Of a DNA stretch of 64,000 nucleotides, positions 49,445 to 60,981 are shown piece after piece (position 1 is the stretch's first letter; every line of letters starts with the position of its first letter). The translations under genes and the position numbers were made by a program. This DNA comes from an uncultured Alphaproteobacteria bacterium (lineage in GTDB: Bacteria > Pseudomonadota > Alphaproteobacteria > UBA11222), in the NCBI GenBank assembly GCA_947258435.1, contig CAMYID010000023.1:186001-250000 (forward strand). The letters run 5' to 3'. The notes under the pieces were generated by a model. That model ran no database searches. It saw only the letters and a program-made list of their open reading frames with translations, and was not told the DNA's origin.

Positions 49445-52400
49445 TTAGTTGGGTATCGGCTGACTTTGCAAATCCATCGGCAATCCCAGCGCACCAAGCT
49501 TGCGCCGCGGGCCCGCATCAGGTGCCTGATCCGTATCATCGCGGCGCGCTTCGGGACGCGGCTGGAACCGGTCCTGCTCCACCTCATCGGTCACGAAATA
49601 AGGATTGCCATCGGGCCCGATATAAAGCCGCTTCTGTTCTTCAAGTGTGAAGGGGCGCGAACCGAGCCGTCCGAAAACCGCGATCTGCCCACCGGTTTCA
49701 TCAACGCCCCGATCCCGGTCAAGCCCCTTGGACAACGACGTCGCCGGCCAGCGTGTTTCACGCCAGGCAATCAACTCAGGCTTGGGTTCGGGACTGAAAC
49801 CGTAAAAGCGCGGCTGACTATCGGGCGATGTCAACTGAATGACCTTAAGGCCATTCACCCCATCGGCGACATAGGCAAACAGTGACGCATTGGTCGATCC
49901 GACCACCACATCACGGGCATCGCTTAACGCACCGTCGGCGGTGTATTTCTGGTAGACCGTGGGCTTTTCGGCATTTTCGATATCGATGATCGCCAGCCCT
50001 TCGCTGCCCGCCGCCACATAGGCATAAGTCCGGGCAAGATAGATCCGCTGCGCATCGGCCAATGGTGCCAGCGCCCCGTCAACATGGCGCGGTGCCTGCG
50101 GGTCCGTTACATCGATAACCTCAAGCCCTTTTGCCGTACTGACGAACAGATAGCGGAACTGCAGCGCGGTTGCACGGGGATCCTGCATCGGGATCTGCGC
50201 AACAAGCTGTGGCTTCAGCGGATCAAACATCGACAGCACAACGATATCGCGCGGCGTTGCGATATAGAAATAACTGCCTGCAATCGTGATATGGCGCGCG
50301 CCGTCAAGCACACCGTTCTCATTCCAGGTAAGCGCGCGTTCAAAGAAATTATTGCGCGGCTCCCCGTCAGCCAGCGTTGTGACATCGACAACGATCAACC
50401 CTTCCTCGCGGTCGGTGATGAAAGCATAGCGATAAATTTCGTGCATTTTCTGCTCCTGATTTGTCTTCAGGATCAGATCGCCCTCATTGAGATCGATGTT
50501 GATATTCTGATTGGTCGGCAGTGCAACGCAACTCGCATCGCGCGTTTCCAGATGGGTGTCGTGCCCTGGCGCAGCAAATGGCGCGGTGATGATGCGATCC
50601 GAAAAGCCCTTATTGGCAATCGCATTCACATCATAGGCCTGAAAGCCGTTTTTGCCTTCGGCGATGAACACATATTCACCGCGCAACATCAGACACCCCA
50701 CATTGCCCGCTTTCTGGGTGTAGGCTTCGGGTAGATTGCGTTGCCGGTCCAGATGCTGCTGGTACCAGTCGGGATAGGCATATTTGTGCAGATAGCTGCC
50801 CAGTACCGCCTGCGGTTCGTCCCACTCGGTCACGCGCACCGCTTCAAAGCCGCCTTCCGCGCCGACATAGGCGTTGAAACCGACAAGATTCACGAAATTG
50901 GTCCCGTGCAGCATAAGCTGCGCCATGATCGCATTATTGTCGTTGGCTTCCGACAAATGACAATCGGTGCAGGTCTTTGTTTCCGTCTTCCGCGCGGTAT
51001 GCGGGAAATGCGGCGCAAAAGCCTGACTTGAATAGCCCGAAGCGGCAATCGGCGGCTGCTGAACGTAAAGACGTTCGCGATTGATATTGGTCGAAGACAG
51101 TACCAACGCAGAGGACGACCGGATCGGAGCGATCGTGTTGCCTTTCACCGTTGCATTAATCCCGAGCTGGAACATCTGATCACGGACAACCTGCGGATTA
51201 TAGGTCGCATAGTTCCGCGTTTCCCCGCCTTCAAAGTGATTGCGCGCGGTTTTCCAGTTTGCCTCGATCGGCAGATGGCACCCGGCGCAGCTCGTCGTCC
51301 AGGAGAGATGGCAGGTAAAACACTCCATCTCCTCATCCTTGTGGGCAAGGTTCTCGGGCGACACACCGGGCCCCCAATCGAACGGCGCATCGGCGGTGCC
51401 CAATTTCGACATCAGCTTGGCGCGTGCCGCCTTGGCATTGAATTCCTTGTGTCCGGGGTCAACGCTGTCCTTGACGAGCGACAATTCCCATTCCAGATCC
51501 CCGTCAAGCATCGAGCGCTGATAGAGCTTGCCATCCACCCACTGAAAGCGGCGCTTGCCGAACGGCGTATAGCTCAGCGACAGATCCTTGCCTTCACCTT
51601 TGGCGGCCGGTCCGCTGGTCCGCAATGAGGGATAACGTTGCGCCGTGCCGTGGCAATCGTCACAACGGATTTCAATCGCCGCTGCCGCCTCGCCATACAG
51701 ATGCCCGTCGCCGTGCACATCCTGCTCGAAATGGCAATCCACGCAATGCATGCCCTTTTCCAGATGGATAGATTTCATATGCACCGCTTTCTGGAACTTA
51801 TCGGGATCGTCGGGATCAACGATATTACCTTCCGCATCCAGCAGATTGCCCTTGCGGTCCTTCTTGAAAATCGCGCGGAAATTCCAGCCATGGCCGTGAT
51901 AGTCGGCAAATTGCGTATTCTTGAGCTGTGGATTAAGCAGCGACACATCCTTAAGGAAATCCGGATCGGACCATTTGCCGCGGATTACCGCCCCTTCAGG
52001 ATTGCGTTCAAGCGCTTCATGCTGCTCCGCATTTGTGGGATAGCGCTGCTCCTCAGGCCACATGAACGGCGCATCGGATTCATAGTCCCACATGGTGTAA
52101 CCAAGATAGGAATTCACAAAGATATTCGGCTGATGCATGTGGCAGTTCATGCATTGCGCCGTCGGAATGGCGCGGGTGAATTCATGCTTGAGCGGATGCC
52201 CGGGCTCATCCTTGGGGATCGTCGGATCAACCGTCTGCGTCAGCCCTGTATTGCCATATTGCGCATAGGGCCCGGAATTATAGGGATCGCGGTCATTCGC
52301 ATAGGGCACATGGCATGCACCGCAGCCCGATGTGCGGAAATCGCCCGGATTATCATTTGTGCCCAAAAACCACATGAAGGGGTCATTAAGCCGGGTCTTG

Positions 52401-53329
52401 TGAATATTGATAAGCGGCACCGCGATACGCAGCCCCGTTCCCGGTCCCCGCATCGACTGGCGCAGATCGGGGCGGCCGGGCTCCTCCAGCCGCTGAATAA
52501 GGCCAAGGGAGTTTGGAATCGCAATTTCGGGAAACTGCGTGACGATATTGCGCCCGCCGCGTTCAAACACCCGGAAGATATCAGCCGGCGGCGTGACCTC
52601 CCAGGCCGGCAACGGCAGCAGGAAGGGGCGCACGCCACGTGCCTCCATTTCCGGGGTGACAGGACCAAGAGCGGTAATTTTCGCCGCCGTACCGTCCATG
52701 TCATACGCTTCGCCAAGGATATAATTCTTATATGGCAGGATACCGTTGTTATAGGCCGCCCCGCCCCACAACAATGCGCCTGTCGCCATGATCGAGCGTT
52801 TGGCTTTGGCGATAATTTCCGCATGGCAATTGCCGCAGGCCAGATGCGCAATACGGTAATCGCTGGGATTGACGAAACGCACATATTCCGATGCTTCCGC
52901 ATTCAGCAGCGTAAAGCTGCCCTCCGGATTGGCGCTATCGGGATAGTGCCAGGTCAGCGGCAGGGTCGGGCGTACATGGGCGCGTTCCTGGGCCGCGAAA
53001 TATTGCGTATCGCCCTGATGCGATCCATCCGGTTTATAAATACTGGCATCGCCCCCATGGCAATCCGCACAGCCGATGACTACTGCGGGATTGCGGTGCA
53101 TCGTTGCCGCATCTGTCGCGGTATGACAGCTTTCGCAACCTGCGCTTTTCTCTGCGGCCTCCTCACGGGTTTGCCGCGCAGGAGCAGGCGGATAGTCGGG
53201 ATAATCGATCTTCTGCGGCTTTTCACCCCCTGCCGCAAAGACAGGATCCGCAGCAAGCATGCCGACCCCAAGCCCGAGCAGCAGGGTCAAAAACAGCCAA
53301 TTCGTCTTTCGCAGCAAGGGCATGATCAA
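49445..53329 (-). CDS. Secreted decaheme c-type cytochrome fused to a C-terminal LVIVD-repeat beta-propeller
   Basis: Signal peptide (AADPVFAAGG); ten CxxCH motifs (CESCH, CADCH, CGNCH, CGACH, CMNCH, CVDCH, CDDCH, CFTCH, CAGCH, CTDCH); about six LVIVD-like repeats (e.g. KGLEVIDVTDPQAP, EGLAIIDIENAEKP). Confidence 0.88.
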   Translation of the reverse strand: MIMPLLRKTNWLFLTLLLGLGVGMLAADPVFAAGGEKPQKIDYPDYPPAPARQTREEAAEKSAGCESCHTATDAATMHRNPAVVIGCADCHGGDASIYKPDGSHQGDTQYFAAQERAHVRPTLPLTWHYPDSANPEGSFTLLNAEASEYVRFVNPSDYRIAHLACGNCHAEIIAKAKRSIMATGALLWGGAAYNNGILPYKNYILGEAYDMDGTAAKITALGPVTPEMEARGVRPFLLPLPAWEVTPPADIFRVFERGGRNIVTQFPEIAIPNSLGLIQRLEEPGRPDLRQSMRGPGTGLRIAVPLINIHKTRLNDPFMWFLGTNDNPGDFRTSGCGACHVPYANDRDPYNSGPYAQYGNTGLTQTVDPTIPKDEPGHPLKHEFTRAIPTAQCMNCHMHQPNIFVNSYLGYTMWDYESDAPFMWPEEQRYPTNAEQHEALERNPEGAVIRGKWSDPDFLKDVSLLNPQLKNTQFADYHGHGWNFRAIFKKDRKGNLLDAEGNIVDPDDPDKFQKAVHMKSIHLEKGMHCVDCHFEQDVHGDGHLYGEAAAAIEIRCDDCHGTAQRYPSLRTSGPAAKGEGKDLSLSYTPFGKRRFQWVDGKLYQRSMLDGDLEWELSLVKDSVDPGHKEFNAKAARAKLMSKLGTADAPFDWGPGVSPENLAHKDEEMECFTCHLSWTTSCAGCHLPIEANWKTARNHFEGGETRNYATYNPQVVRDQMFQLGINATVKGNTIAPIRSSSALVLSSTNINRERLYVQQPPIAASGYSSQAFAPHFPHTARKTETKTCTDCHLSEANDNNAIMAQLMLHGTNFVNLVGFNAYVGAEGGFEAVRVTEWDEPQAVLGSYLHKYAYPDWYQQHLDRQRNLPEAYTQKAGNVGCLMLRGEYVFIAEGKNGFQAYDVNAIANKGFSDRIITAPFAAPGHDTHLETRDASCVALPTNQNINIDLNEGDLILKTNQEQKMHEIYRYAFITDREEGLIVVDVTTLADGEPRNNFFERALTWNENGVLDGARHITIAGSYFYIATPRDIVVLSMFDPLKPQLVAQIPMQDPRATALQFRYLFVSTAKGLEVIDVTDPQAPRHVDGALAPLADAQRIYLARTYAYVAAGSEGLAIIDIENAEKPTVYQKYTADGALSDARDVVVGSTNASLFAYVADGVNGLKVIQLTSPDSQPRFYGFSPEPKPELIAWRETRWPATSLSKGLDRDRGVDETGGQIAVFGRLGSRPFTLEEQKRLYIGPDGNPYFVTDEVEQDRFQPRPEARRDDTDQAPDAGPRRKLGALGLPMDLQSQPIPN

Positions 53330-55776
53330 TACGCCAGTGTCAGGTTCGCAAGGATTGTGTAGAAATGCTCGTCATCGGTCTGATAGAGCGCTTTGAAGCC
53401 GTCATCGGCAATCAGTCCGGCATAGGACAGCCGGAAGACGATATTCTGGCTCATCAGCGGGCGATAGATTGCCGACGCGGACAAATCCCAACCGATCCCG
53501 GTATCGATTTCACCCTGGTTTCGGACAGTCTCCAACACATCGGGTTCATTGAAATCAAGCCGGTTGAAGTTCGTCGAAATCCGCAACTGTGGCAGAACGT
53601 CAAAATCGGTCCCGATGCCCAACAGGCGTATACCGGGGTTAACGAAATTGGACTGCCCATGCTCCTTCGAAGCCCGCAAATCAGCAAGCAAGCCGTTACG
53701 TGGTGAAAGCGTTACCCCACCGCCCCCGATAAGCGGGATGTTCTGGCGTATCCAGAAGCTTGTGTCGGCGCCGGCAAACTGCGGATTTTCAAAGATCGCG
53801 GAAAAGCCTTCCGAACGCTGATCAAACGGATCGTCATCGCCGCTTGCATAAAGCGCCGAACCGCGCAGCCGCATCCAGCTATAGTCAATCGAGGGTTCCG
53901 CCGCCAGGAAATAGGCGCGGATGTCACTATCCTCATCGGTAAAGGACGAGCCACGCTCTTCACCCAGCGCGTAATAGCCCGAGACCGACAAGTTCAGCCG
54001 GCCGAAATGGCCATCGCCATTATAACCCAGATAGGTCACGTCATATTCACGCGGCCGCTCAAGCCCCAGTGACGCCGGCCGCTGAATGAAATCGTTATCA
54101 TCGAAGAAGAAGCTTTCCTCGCGATTACGATTATAGGCAATCGTTGCCTGACTGACGAAGCCCAGAACAGGGAAATCCTGATAGTACAGGTTCGCAAGGA
54201 AGGTATCGTCCTCGCGATTGTCCTCGCTAATATCGTTCAGGCCGCTATTGGTGTCTTTCTCCAGCCGCCTGATCCAGGCCAGATTATACTGGAAGATGTT
54301 ATTGTTCCGCGTACCAAAGAAGCGGACGCCAAACTGATTGTCCTGGAACAGGAAACCACGGAAATCAAAGTTGAAAGGCTGAATTCCGACACGGATTGAG
54401 TCAAAGTCATAACGATCCGACACATTGCGGATATGGTAATCGACAAATGCTTCCTGCAACCCGATATGCTTATCCGAACGGTCGGTCCCGCGATCAGGTG
54501 CGCGCTTGAGAATGCCAAGCTCTTCGACTTTCACATAATTATAGTTGAAAACGGGTGTCAGCCGGAATTCCCAATCCGGTGGCTTATAGGCGGTGTTGCC
54601 CTTGACGATCGTCAGGTTCGTAATCAGATTCTGATTGAAGACAGTCTGATCCGGATCACCGAACAAGTCGTTCCGATCCCGACGCTTTGTCGTCGCGATC
54701 CCGAGCGGCACCGGGAAGGCCCGCGGTTCGTAAATCGTATCTGAAATAATGTTCAGCAGCACAAACCAATCATCGAAGATCGGCTTATCCCCCTTCAGAA
54801 CATTATTGTTGTACGGATCGTACCATTTCCCCTTGATGCCCAGCCCCTCAAGCAGGCGCCAGCGATCAGGTATCGGCACCAGATCAACTTCCCGATTATC
54901 GAGATAGCGCATCAGATCCTGAAATGTCCGCGGCAAACCCGATGGCGGCGCGATACCTTCACGCGCACGCGCATCCCGATCTTCGGGGACCGTACCGTCA
55001 AGCTCATCTGCGCCGCTCTCTCCGGGTCGGCGGCGCGCCTGCGCCAACTGATCTTCAGCACGGCCGATATAAGGGTTATAGCCCGGCACGACGGTGAATG
55101 GTGGCTGATAGCTTGCCACCGGTTGCCGGTTTGGAGCGGTATCCGCGGCCCCTGACTGTGCCTGCAGAAATGCCGGCGCTTGTGCCACGGCTGCCGGCCG
55201 TGAACCAATCGCGCGCGCCCAGTCGGTATTGTCCGGCTGTGCCTGCGGTGCCGTGACGATCGGCGCGGGGGGCATGGCCGCAACCGGCATTTCTACGGGC
55301 TGCACGGGGGCTGGTTGCACGGGGTTCGGCTGCGCATAGCGCGGTATCTGTTGAACATATGCCGGCTGGCTGTAAGTCGGCTGGCTGTAAGTCGGCTGGT
55401 TATAGGCTGGTTGCGCCTGCTGGCCGTAATAATTATTTGCCGCCGGATAAGCTGTTGCCGGAGACGCATCGTAGGGATTGTATCCGGTCTGCGGCGCATA
55501 GCCTTGCTGCTGCGTATAGGCCGGCTGTGGATATCGTGCCTGTGGCGCGGGTGGGGAGTAAGCCTGCGGTGCAGGTACGGCACCGCGCGAATAGCCGGAG
55601 TTGTACCCCTGATAAGCGGCACCACCCTGATAACCGGCCGCCTGCCCCACGCCCGCTGGCGTACCGGCAGTTACCGGTACGCCATATTGATTGAGTGCTT
55701 CCTTACCCGCAAAAACCGGCTGCAGTGTGCCGACCAGAATTGCCGCAATACCAACCGACGCGCTGAGGGATTTCAT
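53326..55776 (-). CDS. Outer-membrane beta-barrel (porin-like) protein with Q/P/Y-rich N-terminal extension
   Basis: MKSLSASVGIAAILVGTLQPVFAGKEA signal peptide (ATG 55776, 16 bp after the upstream stop); alternating amphipathic strands; C-terminal NLTLAY; ATGA overlap with the downstream decaheme gene. Confidence 0.75.
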   Translation of the reverse strand: MKSLSASVGIAAILVGTLQPVFAGKEALNQYGVPVTAGTPAGVGQAAGYQGGAAYQGYNSGYSRGAVPAPQAYSPPAPQARYPQPAYTQQQGYAPQTGYNPYDASPATAYPAANNYYGQQAQPAYNQPTYSQPTYSQPAYVQQIPRYAQPNPVQPAPVQPVEMPVAAMPPAPIVTAPQAQPDNTDWARAIGSRPAAVAQAPAFLQAQSGAADTAPNRQPVASYQPPFTVVPGYNPYIGRAEDQLAQARRRPGESGADELDGTVPEDRDARAREGIAPPSGLPRTFQDLMRYLDNREVDLVPIPDRWRLLEGLGIKGKWYDPYNNNVLKGDKPIFDDWFVLLNIISDTIYEPRAFPVPLGIATTKRRDRNDLFGDPDQTVFNQNLITNLTIVKGNTAYKPPDWEFRLTPVFNYNYVKVEELGILKRAPDRGTDRSDKHIGLQEAFVDYHIRNVSDRYDFDSIRVGIQPFNFDFRGFLFQDNQFGVRFFGTRNNNIFQYNLAWIRRLEKDTNSGLNDISEDNREDDTFLANLYYQDFPVLGFVSQATIAYNRNREESFFFDDNDFIQRPASLGLERPREYDVTYLGYNGDGHFGRLNLSVSGYYALGEERGSSFTDEDSDIRAYFLAAEPSIDYSWMRLRGSALYASGDDDPFDQRSEGFSAIFENPQFAGADTSFWIRQNIPLIGGGGVTLSPRNGLLADLRASKEHGQSNFVNPGIRLLGIGTDFDVLPQLRISTNFNRLDFNEPDVLETVRNQGEIDTGIGWDLSASAIYRPLMSQNIVFRLSYAGLIADDGFKALYQTDDEHFYTILANLTLAY
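55364..55405. repeat. 15-bp tandem repeat (GGCTGGCTGTAAGTC) encoding the YSQPT/YSQPA unit
   Basis: Direct reading; two exact copies plus a partial third copy. Confidence 0.85.
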
Positions 55777-55792
55777 AAAACGATTTCCCACC

Positions 55793-57832
55793 CTATTTCC
55801 CCTCACATACGTTCTGCTCACGGGACCCGAGGAATGGCGCGAACGGACAGCTGACATAACGCAGGCGCACCCCGTTCGGTCGCAAGCCATCCGCCCTGAC
55901 CGCCGAGGGCGCATTGCCGACCCCGTTAGCCAGCGCCACACCGGCATTGTGCAGACCGAGGAAAGAGATCATATCATCCTGGTCGACGCCATCGCCCGAC
56001 ACACCGATCCCACCGACAAGCACACCATTCTTGAAAATCGGGACACTGCCGGGGAAGATCTGCAACCCGTTCGCCAGCGGATTAAGCCCCGAGGTTACCG
56101 ACCGGATCGGCGAACAGCCAAACCCCGTATCATTGACAAACCCGTCCCCGTCGGGATCGAAATCCGGCACACCGTCACCGGTAATATCAATATTCAAATT
56201 CAGCACAAACAGAATGTGATTGAGGATGTTTGGCACAACCAGATCAAGCTGCATACCGGTCGAGAACGGGCTCCAGTTGCCAATCGGCCGGCTGAGCGGC
56301 CCCGGTCCGTTCGTATCCACCCCGTCTGGGAAGAAGGGCCGCGACAGGTTGCCGCCCGACCGGTCGGCAAAGGCGATTCCATCACGTAATGCATTCGGAC
56401 CGATGAAGGCCTGCACCTGGCGTACATAATTCGGAATATTGTAATTATGCCCCGGGATAAGCCCGTTCAGCGTATTTGCGGTGAGCTGAATAACAGGGAA
56501 AACCTGCGGGTTCTCAAGATTTGCTGCCGCATTGGGGCTGGAAATCAAGGCCGCAGTCCGTGCCTTCTGCAGTGACACATCGATGCCGAATAATGGCCCG
56601 TCCGGTGTCCTGGCCTGACCAAGCACCTGCCCTTCGGCATCCACGACCGATACGGTGACCTGAATGAAGCTCTGTAACGGCCGCCGGATCTGCGCACGAC
56701 CGCTAAACGCTACCCGCAGCGCATGGCCGATGATCGTCGACACGTCATTGACCGTCAGATTCTGACCGCCATTTGGCGCACCGGCAATAATCGGGAAGTA
56801 AGGGACATCCGCCCCGCTGACCAATAAAAACGGATTAACCCCGGTGATGTTGACGACATTTGTATAGGCCGCGCCGTCAGTGGCGGTATTGATCGCCCGG
56901 ATACCGGATGCAGAAGTACCGTAAACCTGCCCGGCAATCGGCGCGCCATCGGTGTAACCGGTGACAGCGACGAAGTTCGCAGGCGTCGGTGCGGGCGCCG
57001 TTGCCGGCGTAGTTACCAATGCGCGTGTATCCACATCGGTGTAGCGGAAAGACTTTCCTTCGACGAAAATTCTGTCGGCGCGAATATTGCGCGGCGCGCC
57101 GAACCCGACCGTCCCCGCAATTGCAATGATTTCATCGGGATTACTGTCGATATTGCTGGTTACAGTATCCAGGCCGTAAATGCCGTCTGCCACGATGCCG
57201 ATACCGCCAACCGGCACGCCGCCCTTGTAAAGCGGCAATCCACCCGGATCGGCAGACAGCCCCAGGGGCGAGCGCTTGGGTCCGCGGAACTGATCCGCCG
57301 GAACCGGTGCCGCGGCATTGATGAAACGCCGGCTCAGATCCGAACAGGGCAACTGACTGAACTGCACACCGAACAACGGACCGCTTGGCGCAAAATCTTC
57401 CCCCGGATTGAAATGCTCCTGCACGATCTGGCTTGCCGTGCGGGTCGTAAAGGCATTGCCCCCTGACGACAGATAGGCCCCGGTAATCGCTTTTGCGATT
57501 GCCCCAAGGCTTGCGGGCACAACCCCGGCCAGGCCGTCAATCCCGGTACCGATTGCCCGGCCTGACGTGACTGTTACCGTCGCCGGGGCGCCCGGCATCT
57601 GATACACCGCCAACACATTACCCACACGATCGACAACCGCGATTGTCGCGGGCAACCCGCGAACATTGGCTTCCTGCTGCGCCTGCGCGACGATCTGATT
57701 GACATCGGCAATGGTCAGATTTTGTGCAACTGCCTTGTCTGTCGCGGCCCAAACCCCGCAGACAGCCAGCATGACCGCGACAAAGCCAAGCGCACGGCCA
57801 GCCAGGGCGGAGATAGAACTGAGCTTTTTCAT
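55793..57832 (-). CDS. Secreted protein with two GlcG/HbpS (DUF336) haem-binding-like domains
   Basis: LTIADVNQIVAQAQQEANVRGLPATIAVVDRVGNVLAVYQMPG and LTVNDVSTIIGHALRVA...VTVSVVDAEGQVLGQARTPDG; N-terminal signal-like segment; ATG 57832 or 57844. Confidence 0.82.
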   Translation of the reverse strand: MKKLSSISALAGRALGFVAVMLAVCGVWAATDKAVAQNLTIADVNQIVAQAQQEANVRGLPATIAVVDRVGNVLAVYQMPGAPATVTVTSGRAIGTGIDGLAGVVPASLGAIAKAITGAYLSSGGNAFTTRTASQIVQEHFNPGEDFAPSGPLFGVQFSQLPCSDLSRRFINAAAPVPADQFRGPKRSPLGLSADPGGLPLYKGGVPVGGIGIVADGIYGLDTVTSNIDSNPDEIIAIAGTVGFGAPRNIRADRIFVEGKSFRYTDVDTRALVTTPATAPAPTPANFVAVTGYTDGAPIAGQVYGTSASGIRAINTATDGAAYTNVVNITGVNPFLLVSGADVPYFPIIAGAPNGGQNLTVNDVSTIIGHALRVAFSGRAQIRRPLQSFIQVTVSVVDAEGQVLGQARTPDGPLFGIDVSLQKARTAALISSPNAAANLENPQVFPVIQLTANTLNGLIPGHNYNIPNYVRQVQAFIGPNALRDGIAFADRSGGNLSRPFFPDGVDTNGPGPLSRPIGNWSPFSTGMQLDLVVPNILNHILFVLNLNIDITGDGVPDFDPDGDGFVNDTGFGCSPIRSVTSGLNPLANGLQIFPGSVPIFKNGVLVGGIGVSGDGVDQDDMISFLGLHNAGVALANGVGNAPSAVRADGLRPNGVRLRYVSCPFAPFLGSREQNVCEGK

Positions 57833-57913
57833 GCCACGATTCATCCTGCTCTCACTTGCCCTCGCATCAAGATGATGCATTCCGTTCCTCGCTTCACTGA
57901 CGATCCCCATCGG

Positions 57914-58366
57914 CTAATTCCTGCGAAACACGTCAAAGCTGCCGAACTTCAACACGCCGGCCGCGCGATAATAAACAGTCACTTTGATCGGAAAATTACT
58001 GGCCGACAGATCCTGATTGAGAACCTGAAACTGCAGATTATCCCCTGCCGGGACAAAGCCGTTATCGGGCAATGAAGCAAGGTCGCGGTCCCAGGGCTGA
58101 AACAGCCCCGCATTGTCGCGCAGCAAGGGCTGGCTGCCCGAAGACTGAATGACCACATGGGTCGCGGTCGGTACATCCCCTCCCAGAGCGATCGTCTTGT
58201 TGACGACACCAGCGGTGACATTCGCCAGCACAACCGGCGTCAGCACTCGCCCATCCACATTCAGATCAGGCTCCGCCAGAGCAGGAGTCGCCCCCGCCGC
58301 CAGCACAAACAGCGCCAGAAGATTCGTCGGCCGTAAACCGGAAATAAACCGCAACACCCGCATCAT
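57914..58366 (-). CDS. Small secreted protein of unknown function in the cytochrome operon
   Basis: Signal peptide ALFVLAAGATPALA; directly abuts the FHA-cytochrome stop; no recognised domain. Confidence 0.7.
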   Translation of the reverse strand: MMRVLRFISGLRPTNLLALFVLAAGATPALAEPDLNVDGRVLTPVVLANVTAGVVNKTIALGGDVPTATHVVIQSSGSQPLLRDNAGLFQPWDRDLASLPDNGFVPAGDNLQFQVLNQDLSASNFPIKVTVYYRAAGVLKFGSFDVFRRN

Positions 58367-60139
58367 CTAACTTCCATTATCCCCTGTTCCGTATTCCGCA
58401 TCGCGTTGCCCCGCCGGCATGTCCGGCCCTGTCCAGGCCGCTGCGGCGACCGGTTTCATCATCGGCTCACCGTCCAGATGATAATCATGACAGGTCACAC
58501 AGTTCGACGGCACCTTGTCTGCGGCATTCTCACCCGAGTGACAATCCTGGCAAATTTCGATTTTCGGCAACAGGACGTCGGTTGCAAGATGCGATTTGTC
58601 CGCAGCGTGACAATTTTCACAGGCGACGATCTCAAAATGGCTCTTATGGTCATAACGCCCGCCGGGCAGCCAGCGGTTGCTAACCGATGCAGGCACCACA
58701 GACCAGTTGAGCGGCCCGGCTCCTTCGCCGGTCATCACCTCGTGACATGTCCCGCACATGGTACGGCCAAATGCCTGATCGGCAACTTTCCGCGCCTGCT
58801 GCTCGGCCCATTCCTTGGGATTGGCCTTTACGACTTCCTGTCTGACGGGCTCCGACCCCGGACGGCGGCGGCTGATCAGCTCTTCCCGGCCGCCCGCATC
58901 TGAGACACCGCCGCGCAGGGCAAAATCACTGTAGAACTCGCGAATAAGCAATTGCGCGTTATCAACCTGCCCGTGCGGCAAAACACGGTCCGGCCGCCGC
59001 GGCTCGAACTTGAGCTGATGGCAGCGCTCGCATTGCGCCTCCATCTCTATCGGGAAGAAACTCGCACCCGATGGTTCGCTGACATGACAGGATTCGCACA
59101 CAAGTTCTTCGCGTCCCTTCGGGCCACGAATACCGTCTTTCTTCAGATGCACATCATGCGGAAAACGCAGCCCCGAACGCTCGACAAGCTTCTCGGGCTC
59201 GTTCAGCGAAATTCGCTTACTCTGCTGCGCAAGGGGATCAAGCATGACCACGGGGCGGAATTCGGGGTGTTCTTCCTCGAAATTCGACGCATTGAGCAAA
59301 TTCGTGTCCGGCGCCGCCGCTTCGATATCCGCATGGCAGTCCGCGCAGAAGCTGTCCTGCATGATGGAAATCGCCGCATCGCCATTATGTTCTTTATGGC
59401 AACTCTGACAGGCGCTTGCAGCCGCATCCTGATACAGCCCGACCTCCGCAAGCTCGGGCGCCTGCGGGTCAAAATGGTGCGTTATTTTCTCGTGGCAGGA
59501 AAAGCATGCCTCATCCTTCACCTGCACAAACGCTTCCTCATGACACACGTTGCACTGCATGCTGATGAAACGGTGCGCTGTCGAAATCGTGCCGCTGTCC
59601 CAGGATTGGTCAAGCCGAAAGGCAATTTCGCTGCGCGGCTTGGGTTCCTCATGCTGAATGAAGAATACAATTGGCGCGACCAGAAACAGCGCGATAATCG
59701 CCAGCGCCCAGCCCCAGGACCAGGCACGTTTGCTGACACCGCGATCAGCAAGGTTTGTAACGCTTCTTGCGGCGAGCGCCTCGTAATCATCGCCAAGCGG
59801 CCGCACGAGTTCGACATCGATTGCGACATCCTTACCCTCAGGCGCCTCGACCACCGTCACGTCATAGGGGCCGATACCGATGACGTCGCCAGCATCCACC
59901 GCGCGGGCAGGCACGGAAATGCCATTGACCCGGATATCGGCATCTTCCTCCGCCTCGACGAACAGGCCGCCGGGACGATGGTGTATAACGGCATGCTCCA
60001 GCCGGACGCGCGGATCCGCCAGATAAACTTCCGCATTGGTGGCACGGCCAAAACGCAATGTTTCGGCTTCAAGCTCTTCCGGCTTGCGCGAGACCCCGCC
60101 CCTCGACAGGCGTGTCAGATATGTAACAACAGCTTCCAC
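58367..60139 (-). CDS. FHA-like domain, single TM helix, decaheme c-type cytochrome
   Basis: N-terminal LRFGRATNAEVYLADPRVRLEHAVIHHRPGGLFVEAEEDADIRVNG; TM WGWALAIIALFLVAPIVFFI; ten CxxCH (CNVCH, CFSCH, CQSCH, CADCH, CESCH, CERCH, CGTCH, CENCH, CQDCH, CVTCH). Confidence 0.88.
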   Translation of the reverse strand: MEAVVTYLTRLSRGGVSRKPEELEAETLRFGRATNAEVYLADPRVRLEHAVIHHRPGGLFVEAEEDADIRVNGISVPARAVDAGDVIGIGPYDVTVVEAPEGKDVAIDVELVRPLGDDYEALAARSVTNLADRGVSKRAWSWGWALAIIALFLVAPIVFFIQHEEPKPRSEIAFRLDQSWDSGTISTAHRFISMQCNVCHEEAFVQVKDEACFSCHEKITHHFDPQAPELAEVGLYQDAAASACQSCHKEHNGDAAISIMQDSFCADCHADIEAAAPDTNLLNASNFEEEHPEFRPVVMLDPLAQQSKRISLNEPEKLVERSGLRFPHDVHLKKDGIRGPKGREELVCESCHVSEPSGASFFPIEMEAQCERCHQLKFEPRRPDRVLPHGQVDNAQLLIREFYSDFALRGGVSDAGGREELISRRRPGSEPVRQEVVKANPKEWAEQQARKVADQAFGRTMCGTCHEVMTGEGAGPLNWSVVPASVSNRWLPGGRYDHKSHFEIVACENCHAADKSHLATDVLLPKIEICQDCHSGENAADKVPSNCVTCHDYHLDGEPMMKPVAAAAWTGPDMPAGQRDAEYGTGDNGS

Positions 60140-60147
60140 GCCAGCCC

Positions 60148-60981
60148 CTACCAGTAAAAGAAGACCGCCACGATATGCGTCGCGAGCGCTGCAAGCAGCG
60201 CAAAGGAAATCGGCACGTGAATATACAACCAGACGTCAAGCAGTGCCTTATAGCGGACATCGCGCCGCGCCCGGCGCACCAGTTCCTCTTTCCGCGCCAT
60301 CAAAGCAATAAGCCCGCGCAGATTCTCGCTCTGTGCGGTTGAGGCGGATGCGGCCAGGTCCTGCAATTGCCGATTGGCGGCGATCGTCGGGCAATCCGCA
60401 TCGCGCCCGGAGAGCTGCTGACGAAAGCTTCCGCCGATCACCGTATCTTCCGCCGCATGCAGAACGATCTGGTTGATTTTATCGCCAAGCGACATCGCCA
60501 TATCACGGCACTGCGCATCAAGCTCGGCGATATCCTGCAATATCTGATCGAGCGTCGCACCACCCCGGTTACGGGTCATCAGATCGGGCACCCGCAGATA
60601 GGCCACCAATCCGAACACGCCGCTGCCAATGACAAAAATCATCAGCGCATAGGCCAGCGTATGAACGTTCCAGCCGAACTGAAAACCGGTATGGAGGGTA
60701 GCGACAAAAATCAGCGCCAGCCCGAGATAGACATGCGCGCTCAGCCAGTCTTCGACCGACAGGCTGGCAGCCCCGTAGCGACGCTTGCGAATACCGAACC
60801 ACATCAGCCAGACAATCAGCAGCGCCCCGATCGTGCCCAATCCATATCCAAGCCAGGTCCCCCCATTCGCAACGCCATAGGCGGGATCATGCAGAACATA
60901 CAGACCGATCGCCACCGCAACGACCAGCAACGCCCACTTCAGATATAAATAATTCCTGAAAACCAGGATGGATTGATGCAT
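60148..60981 (-). CDS. Integral membrane cytochrome b-like protein
   Basis: About five TM helices; two His pairs each spaced 14 residues (HVYLGLALIFVATLH and HVPISFALLAALATH). Confidence 0.65.
   Translation of the reverse strand: MHQSILVFRNYLYLKWALLVVAVAIGLYVLHDPAYGVANGGTWLGYGLGTIGALLIVWLMWFGIRKRRYGAASLSVEDWLSAHVYLGLALIFVATLHTGFQFGWNVHTLAYALMIFVIGSGVFGLVAYLRVPDLMTRNRGGATLDQILQDIAELDAQCRDMAMSLGDKINQIVLHAAEDTVIGGSFRQQLSGRDADCPTIAANRQLQDLAASASTAQSENLRGLIALMARKEELVRRARRDVRYKALLDVWLYIHVPISFALLAALATHIVAVFFYW

Follow-up and report, generated by a model that had tools for sequence, protein, structure and literature searches.

The window analysed here is a 64,000-nucleotide stretch of contig CAMYID010000023.1 (positions 186,001 to 250,000, forward strand) from an uncultured alphaproteobacterium. 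On its minus strand lies a gene with a GTG start (58367..60139), whose 590-residue product was identified as an FHA-TM-decahaem cytochrome c by ORF, Pfam, AlphaFold, and Foldseek analyses. The protein is composed of an N-terminal FHA domain (residues 1-112; 59804..60139, minus strand; Pfam, pLDDT, and phmmer), a single transmembrane (TM) helix at about residues 143-162 (59654..59713, minus strand), and a decahaem region predicted to be periplasmic (residues 196-551; 58487..59554, minus strand), in which Cytochrome_C7 and Cytochrom_c3_2 profiles matched. Hydropathy analysis revealed exactly one TM segment, and the first cysteines of the ten CxxCH motifs are residues 196, 212, 244, 265, 348, 370, 462, 507, 530, and 547, confirming the one hydrophobic helix and ten CxxCH given in a preliminary description of this DNA. 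Because no N-terminal signal sequence was present and c-type haem is attached in the periplasm, a predicted N-in/C-out orientation follows, with the FHA domain in the cytosol and the haems in the periplasm, where that description had placed them. A weak positive-inside bias was observed flanking the TM helix. An MtrA/DmsE-type decahaem identity was rejected, since the DmsE-family model gave 16.7 bits against a cutoff of 192. A chance fusion or frame artefact was also rejected because the whole architecture was found again in dozens of homologues, down to ~30% identity. The fusion of a cytosolic FHA domain, one TM helix, and a ten-haem cytochrome is confirmed as real and not a one-off. Promoter and terminator scans gave scores little different from those of shuffled sequence.

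The Pfam FHA profile matched residues 29-90 with 22.8 bits, above its cutoff of 20.7, and Yop-YscD_cpl, an FHA-fold family, matched residues 22-97 with 25.7 bits, under its own cutoff. In an AlphaFold2 model for which 57 homologues served as input, residues 1-110 were all-beta with pLDDT values of 87-96 per ten-residue block, mostly above 90, followed by a helix at residues 137-162. In a Foldseek comparison with the PDB, FHA-superfamily domains ranked highest, Rv1747 FHA-2 and GarA foremost among them, and the YscD structures 4d9v and 4a0e were among the matches. The proposal that the N-terminal 110 residues form an FHA-like domain with the GR and NG positions kept was therefore supported by profile, model, and structural alignment. 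The domain retains G31, R32, N72, G73, H49, and A50, and a phmmer alignment with Rv1747 FHA-2 (E 1.9e-4) placed the serine of the SxxH motif at R46, in agreement with the previously suspected replacement of this serine by arginine. In the alignment, 55 of the 57 homologues have R32, 39 have N72, and 47 have G73. Serine was found at position 46 in none of them (Leu in 25, Arg in 10, Pro in 9, and others), showing that its loss is family-wide, and position 47, normally Arg, was Leu in 49. By contrast, the serine was present in all 11 ordinary FHA domains drawn from two genomes as controls. The homologues share a family-specific DPRVxL motif (D42 and P43 in 49/57, R44 in 48/57, and L47 in 49/57).

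Beyond the preliminary description, the gene appears from sequence comparison to belong to a conserved electron-transfer cluster. One neighbouring gene (60148..60981, minus strand) encodes a predicted di-haem b protein of the inner membrane with five helices and 277 residues. Its sequence contains SGVFG and a pair of WX3HX13H motifs, and 50 of 50 orthologues likewise have the motif pair together with SGxxG. Another (61145..63538, minus strand) encodes a predicted cytosolic FAD/NAD(P) flavoprotein of 797 residues with two CNB domains and four [4Fe-4S] motifs, assigned from Pfam, conserved cysteines, and CNB cassettes. Sixteen cysteines were conserved among 50 flavoprotein sequences, the number for four [4Fe-4S] clusters, and the CNB cassette residues E417, R426, and E542 were found in all 50 and R551 in 48. 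A thioredoxin/bacillithiol reductase was considered and rejected: the best NCBIfam match, YpdA, was far below its cutoff, and CxxC is absent from the first 600 residues, so the flavoprotein is not a thioredoxin reductase. Four nucleotide-cyclase matches were found in the window genome, so cyclic nucleotides may be available in the cell. In a planctomycete relative (L123/L145), the CNB-CNB-Fe-S segment matched inside a different, NuoG-like frame.

The other neighbours, all on the minus strand, suggest an outer module. A small predicted exported protein of 150 residues with no Pfam match or assigned family (57914..58366) is encoded between the decahaem gene and that of an HbpS-like protein of a haem-binding family; its homologues were found at 33 loci, about a third. 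The HbpS-like protein (705 residues; 55793..57910) matched PF03928 with 82.9 bits and is a conserved neighbour, as is a predicted outer-membrane barrel (53326..55947), which matched DESULF_POR1 with an E-value of 4e-6, below the cutoff, and whose true start is probably inside this ORF. The last gene (49445..53329) encodes an LVIVD-repeat cytochrome of 1294 residues with ten CxxCH (LVIVD, 61.3 bits), which scored 80.6 bits with ExtM of a selenite/tellurite reduction operon, below the cutoff of 800. With its beta-propeller-type region and ten haems, and conserved with the cluster, this cytochrome is a candidate outer-membrane terminal cytochrome. Just past the window end, a CcmH/CycH-like TPR protein for cytochrome c maturation is encoded.

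We examined 91 loci from Alpha-, Beta-, and Gammaproteobacteria, a set that contains some duplicates between collections; the cytochrome was matched at 87, the b-haem protein at 85, and the CNB-flavoprotein at 81, and the usual gene order was flavoprotein, b protein, and decahaem. All full-length homologues keep ten haems. Among genomes sampled from the class, 27 of 296 had a homologue, as did 15 of 399 in a sample of the phylum. The relatives include Desertibaculum subflavum, Oceanibacterium hippocampi, and Croceicoccus ponticola, as well as marine and lake Alphaproteobacteria and MAGs of Beta- and Gammaproteobacteria; some contigs bear the labels of other phyla (Nitrospira, Marinimicrobia, and Mesoflavibacter), apparently through mistakes in binning or naming. 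The inner module is followed, in the window as in most relatives, by the HbpS-like protein, the outer-membrane barrel, and the ten-haem LVIVD cytochrome. At two other loci (L081 and L108), the inner module instead occurs with a porin-like protein and cytochromes with 5 and 4 haems. In the window genome, a 4-haem homologue is located on contig C5, outside the cluster, and no 5-haem homologue was detected. On gene content, the same inner-membrane module thus appears to combine with two different outer modules.

We consider it reasonably probable that the FHA-decahaem protein relays electrons at the inner membrane within a conserved conduit across the cell envelope, its FHA domain serving as a phospho-independent dock. 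Electrons would pass between the cytosolic protein carrying NAD(P)H, FAD, and four [4Fe-4S] sites and the five-helix di-haem b protein, then between the b protein and the membrane-anchored decahaem region, and between the latter and the outer-membrane barrel with its second multihaem cytochrome. By analogy with the FHA-fold cytosolic domain of YscD/SctD, the FHA domain would dock without phosphate and most likely hold the CNB-flavoprotein beside the b-haem protein and the decahaem region; both the formation of such a complex and the binding partner of the FHA domain are what we infer from the cluster. The conserved edge of the domain would fit the binding of a different, likely unphosphorylated, partner, and R32, H49, and R44 could still bind an anionic ligand. 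We also infer that electrons flow outward from NAD(P)H, because their export from this donor is thermodynamically favoured, being downhill to most external acceptors.

The opposite direction has somewhat less than an even chance. In an electron uptake conduit, an external donor such as Fe(II) or Mn(II) would be oxidized and electrons would travel inward through the decahaem region and the b haems to quinone, with the flavoprotein working at the quinone or NAD(P) end. However, the cytosolic partner encoded in tight linkage is a flavoprotein of the NAD(P)H type, and the reduction of NAD(P)+ by Fe(II) is uphill unless energy is supplied. What argues for uptake is the agreement of the component set and the b-protein signature with PCC4, a putative porin-cytochrome conduit described as containing a porin, multihaem cytochromes (MHCs) with 4, 5, and 10 haems, a conserved inner-membrane protein, and an Fe-S protein (He et al. 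2017, PMC5566968). In that study, the two WX3HX13H motifs and SGxxG of the PCC3 and PCC4 inner-membrane proteins were read as two b haems, and both conduits were proposed as an inward electron route; its main text does not mention FHA (PMC5566968). Also consistent with uptake, Table 1 of a study on Gallionellaceae lists cytochrome cluster 403, a 'Forkhead-associated protein' with 10 CXXCH, in 27 of 87 iron-oxidizing genomes (PMC10734462). The cluster is placed under 'Other' with no analysis at that entry, and it is likened to the window family by annotation and haem number alone (PMC10734462). This table entry was all that a literature search for FHA-multihaem or LVIVD-multihaem fusions returned (PMC10734462).

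If the conduit is regulated, the input would come through the paired cyclic-nucleotide domains of the flavoprotein and not through the FHA domain. The intact regulatory-looking sites, a point beyond the preliminary description, appear to be the CNB cassettes of this adjacent protein, and a signalling input seems more plausible there than at the FHA domain. We tentatively raise the possibility, rather unlikely in its full form, that the conduit is gated by a second messenger, with cAMP or cGMP on the two CNB domains controlling how electrons flow, and with the FHA domain, repurposed and blind to phosphate, clamping the flavoprotein to the periplasmic decahaem wire.

It is less probable still that the FHA domain has degenerated into a remnant whose role is purely structural or in folding, tolerated as the rest of the cytochrome works without it. 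Relatives without FHA do occur: in Ferrovum MAG contigs, the decahaem is again encoded with the b protein, but only a short N-terminus comes before its helix, and a planctomycete relative encodes a version with nine CxxCH beside a b protein whose motifs match those of the window protein. FHA was not found anywhere in the Ferrovum genome, in which the full CNB-flavoprotein is present; since Ferrovum keeps both the flavoprotein and the b protein, the FHA domain is dispensable for partnership with them. The FHA columns are also variable on average (mean entropy, 2.13 bits). Against a remnant, the profiles were found in most of the 57 homologues (Yop-YscD_cpl in 49 and FHA in 45), and the ligand-edge loops are among the best-conserved parts of the domain, despite the family-specific motif. 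The tree did not separate FHA gain from loss, its basal branches being long and unresolved.

In phosphothreonine-binding FHA domains, the SxxH serine touches the phosphate. Canonical phosphothreonine reading by the decahaem FHA is therefore judged unlikely, because none of the 57 homologues but all 11 controls have this serine, and because no Pkinase match was found in 8 of 22 gene-carrying genomes, three of those 8 being listed at 100% completeness. Among the 18 gene-carrying genomes of good quality, 6 were without a Pkinase match, and the gene thus seems to occur without requiring a Ser/Thr kinase. The doubt about phosphothreonine reading voiced in the preliminary description is strengthened by the homologue and control counts. 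Its idea of recruitment or regulation from the cytoplasm stands in part: the FHA domain is predicted to be cytosolic and docking is favoured, but the specific signalling idea gained nothing, as no Ser/Thr kinase was found near the gene. The window FHA is the sole FHA match in its genome. The only Pkinase protein of the genome (L002:394-2388, contig C8) has an apparent PP2C-like phosphatase half at its N-terminus and a C-terminal TM helix, and its gene adjoins a ZnuA-like gene. A phospho-switch, in which a Ser/Thr kinase phosphorylates a partner that the FHA domain reads through R32 and residues other than the serine, could draw on the largely retained G31, R32, H49, N72, and G73 and on this one PP2C-like Pkinase protein, but is highly improbable given the missing serine, the genomes without Pkinase, and the location of the window genome's kinase on a different contig. 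A dock is the better reading of the domain than a phosphothreonine reader, and its FHA annotation should not be taken as a sign of phospho-signalling.

These observations tie an annotated but ignored protein type to a widespread predicted electron-transfer cluster, in which one inner-membrane module would serve two outer-membrane modules. The favoured docking role yields a testable idea, namely that a cytosolic redox protein is docked to a periplasmic haem wire, possibly under cyclic-nucleotide gating.

Among known systems, the protein resembles YscD/SctD of type III secretion in having a cytosolic N-terminal domain of the FHA fold, a single TM helix, and a periplasmic C-terminus, and the YscD profile matched 49 of the 57 homologues. 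The periplasmic part of YscD/SctD consists of secretin-ring domains, whereas that of the window protein is a multihaem cytochrome, and no secretion genes were seen in the cluster. With MtrA/MtoA and CymA/NapC-type proteins, it would share the role of a periplasmic multihaem relay from the inner membrane to an outer-membrane conduit. It differs from them in that MtoA is embedded in a porin, whereas CymA acts as a quinol dehydrogenase of small size. The likeness to PCC4 extends in the window to a ten-haem MHC, a five-helix inner-membrane protein with the motifs, and an Fe-S redox protein. The outer module of the window differs in having a different barrel, the HbpS-like protein, and the ten-haem LVIVD cytochrome, with no 4-haem or 5-haem MHC in the cluster, and its barrel-like protein matches the porin model only weakly. 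By contrast, L081 and L108 contain exactly the porin and the 4-, 5-, and 10-haem cytochromes, the 10-haem cytochrome being the FHA protein. Since this set is the composition published for PCC4, the FHA protein, likened by that component description, is probably the ten-haem component of PCC4.
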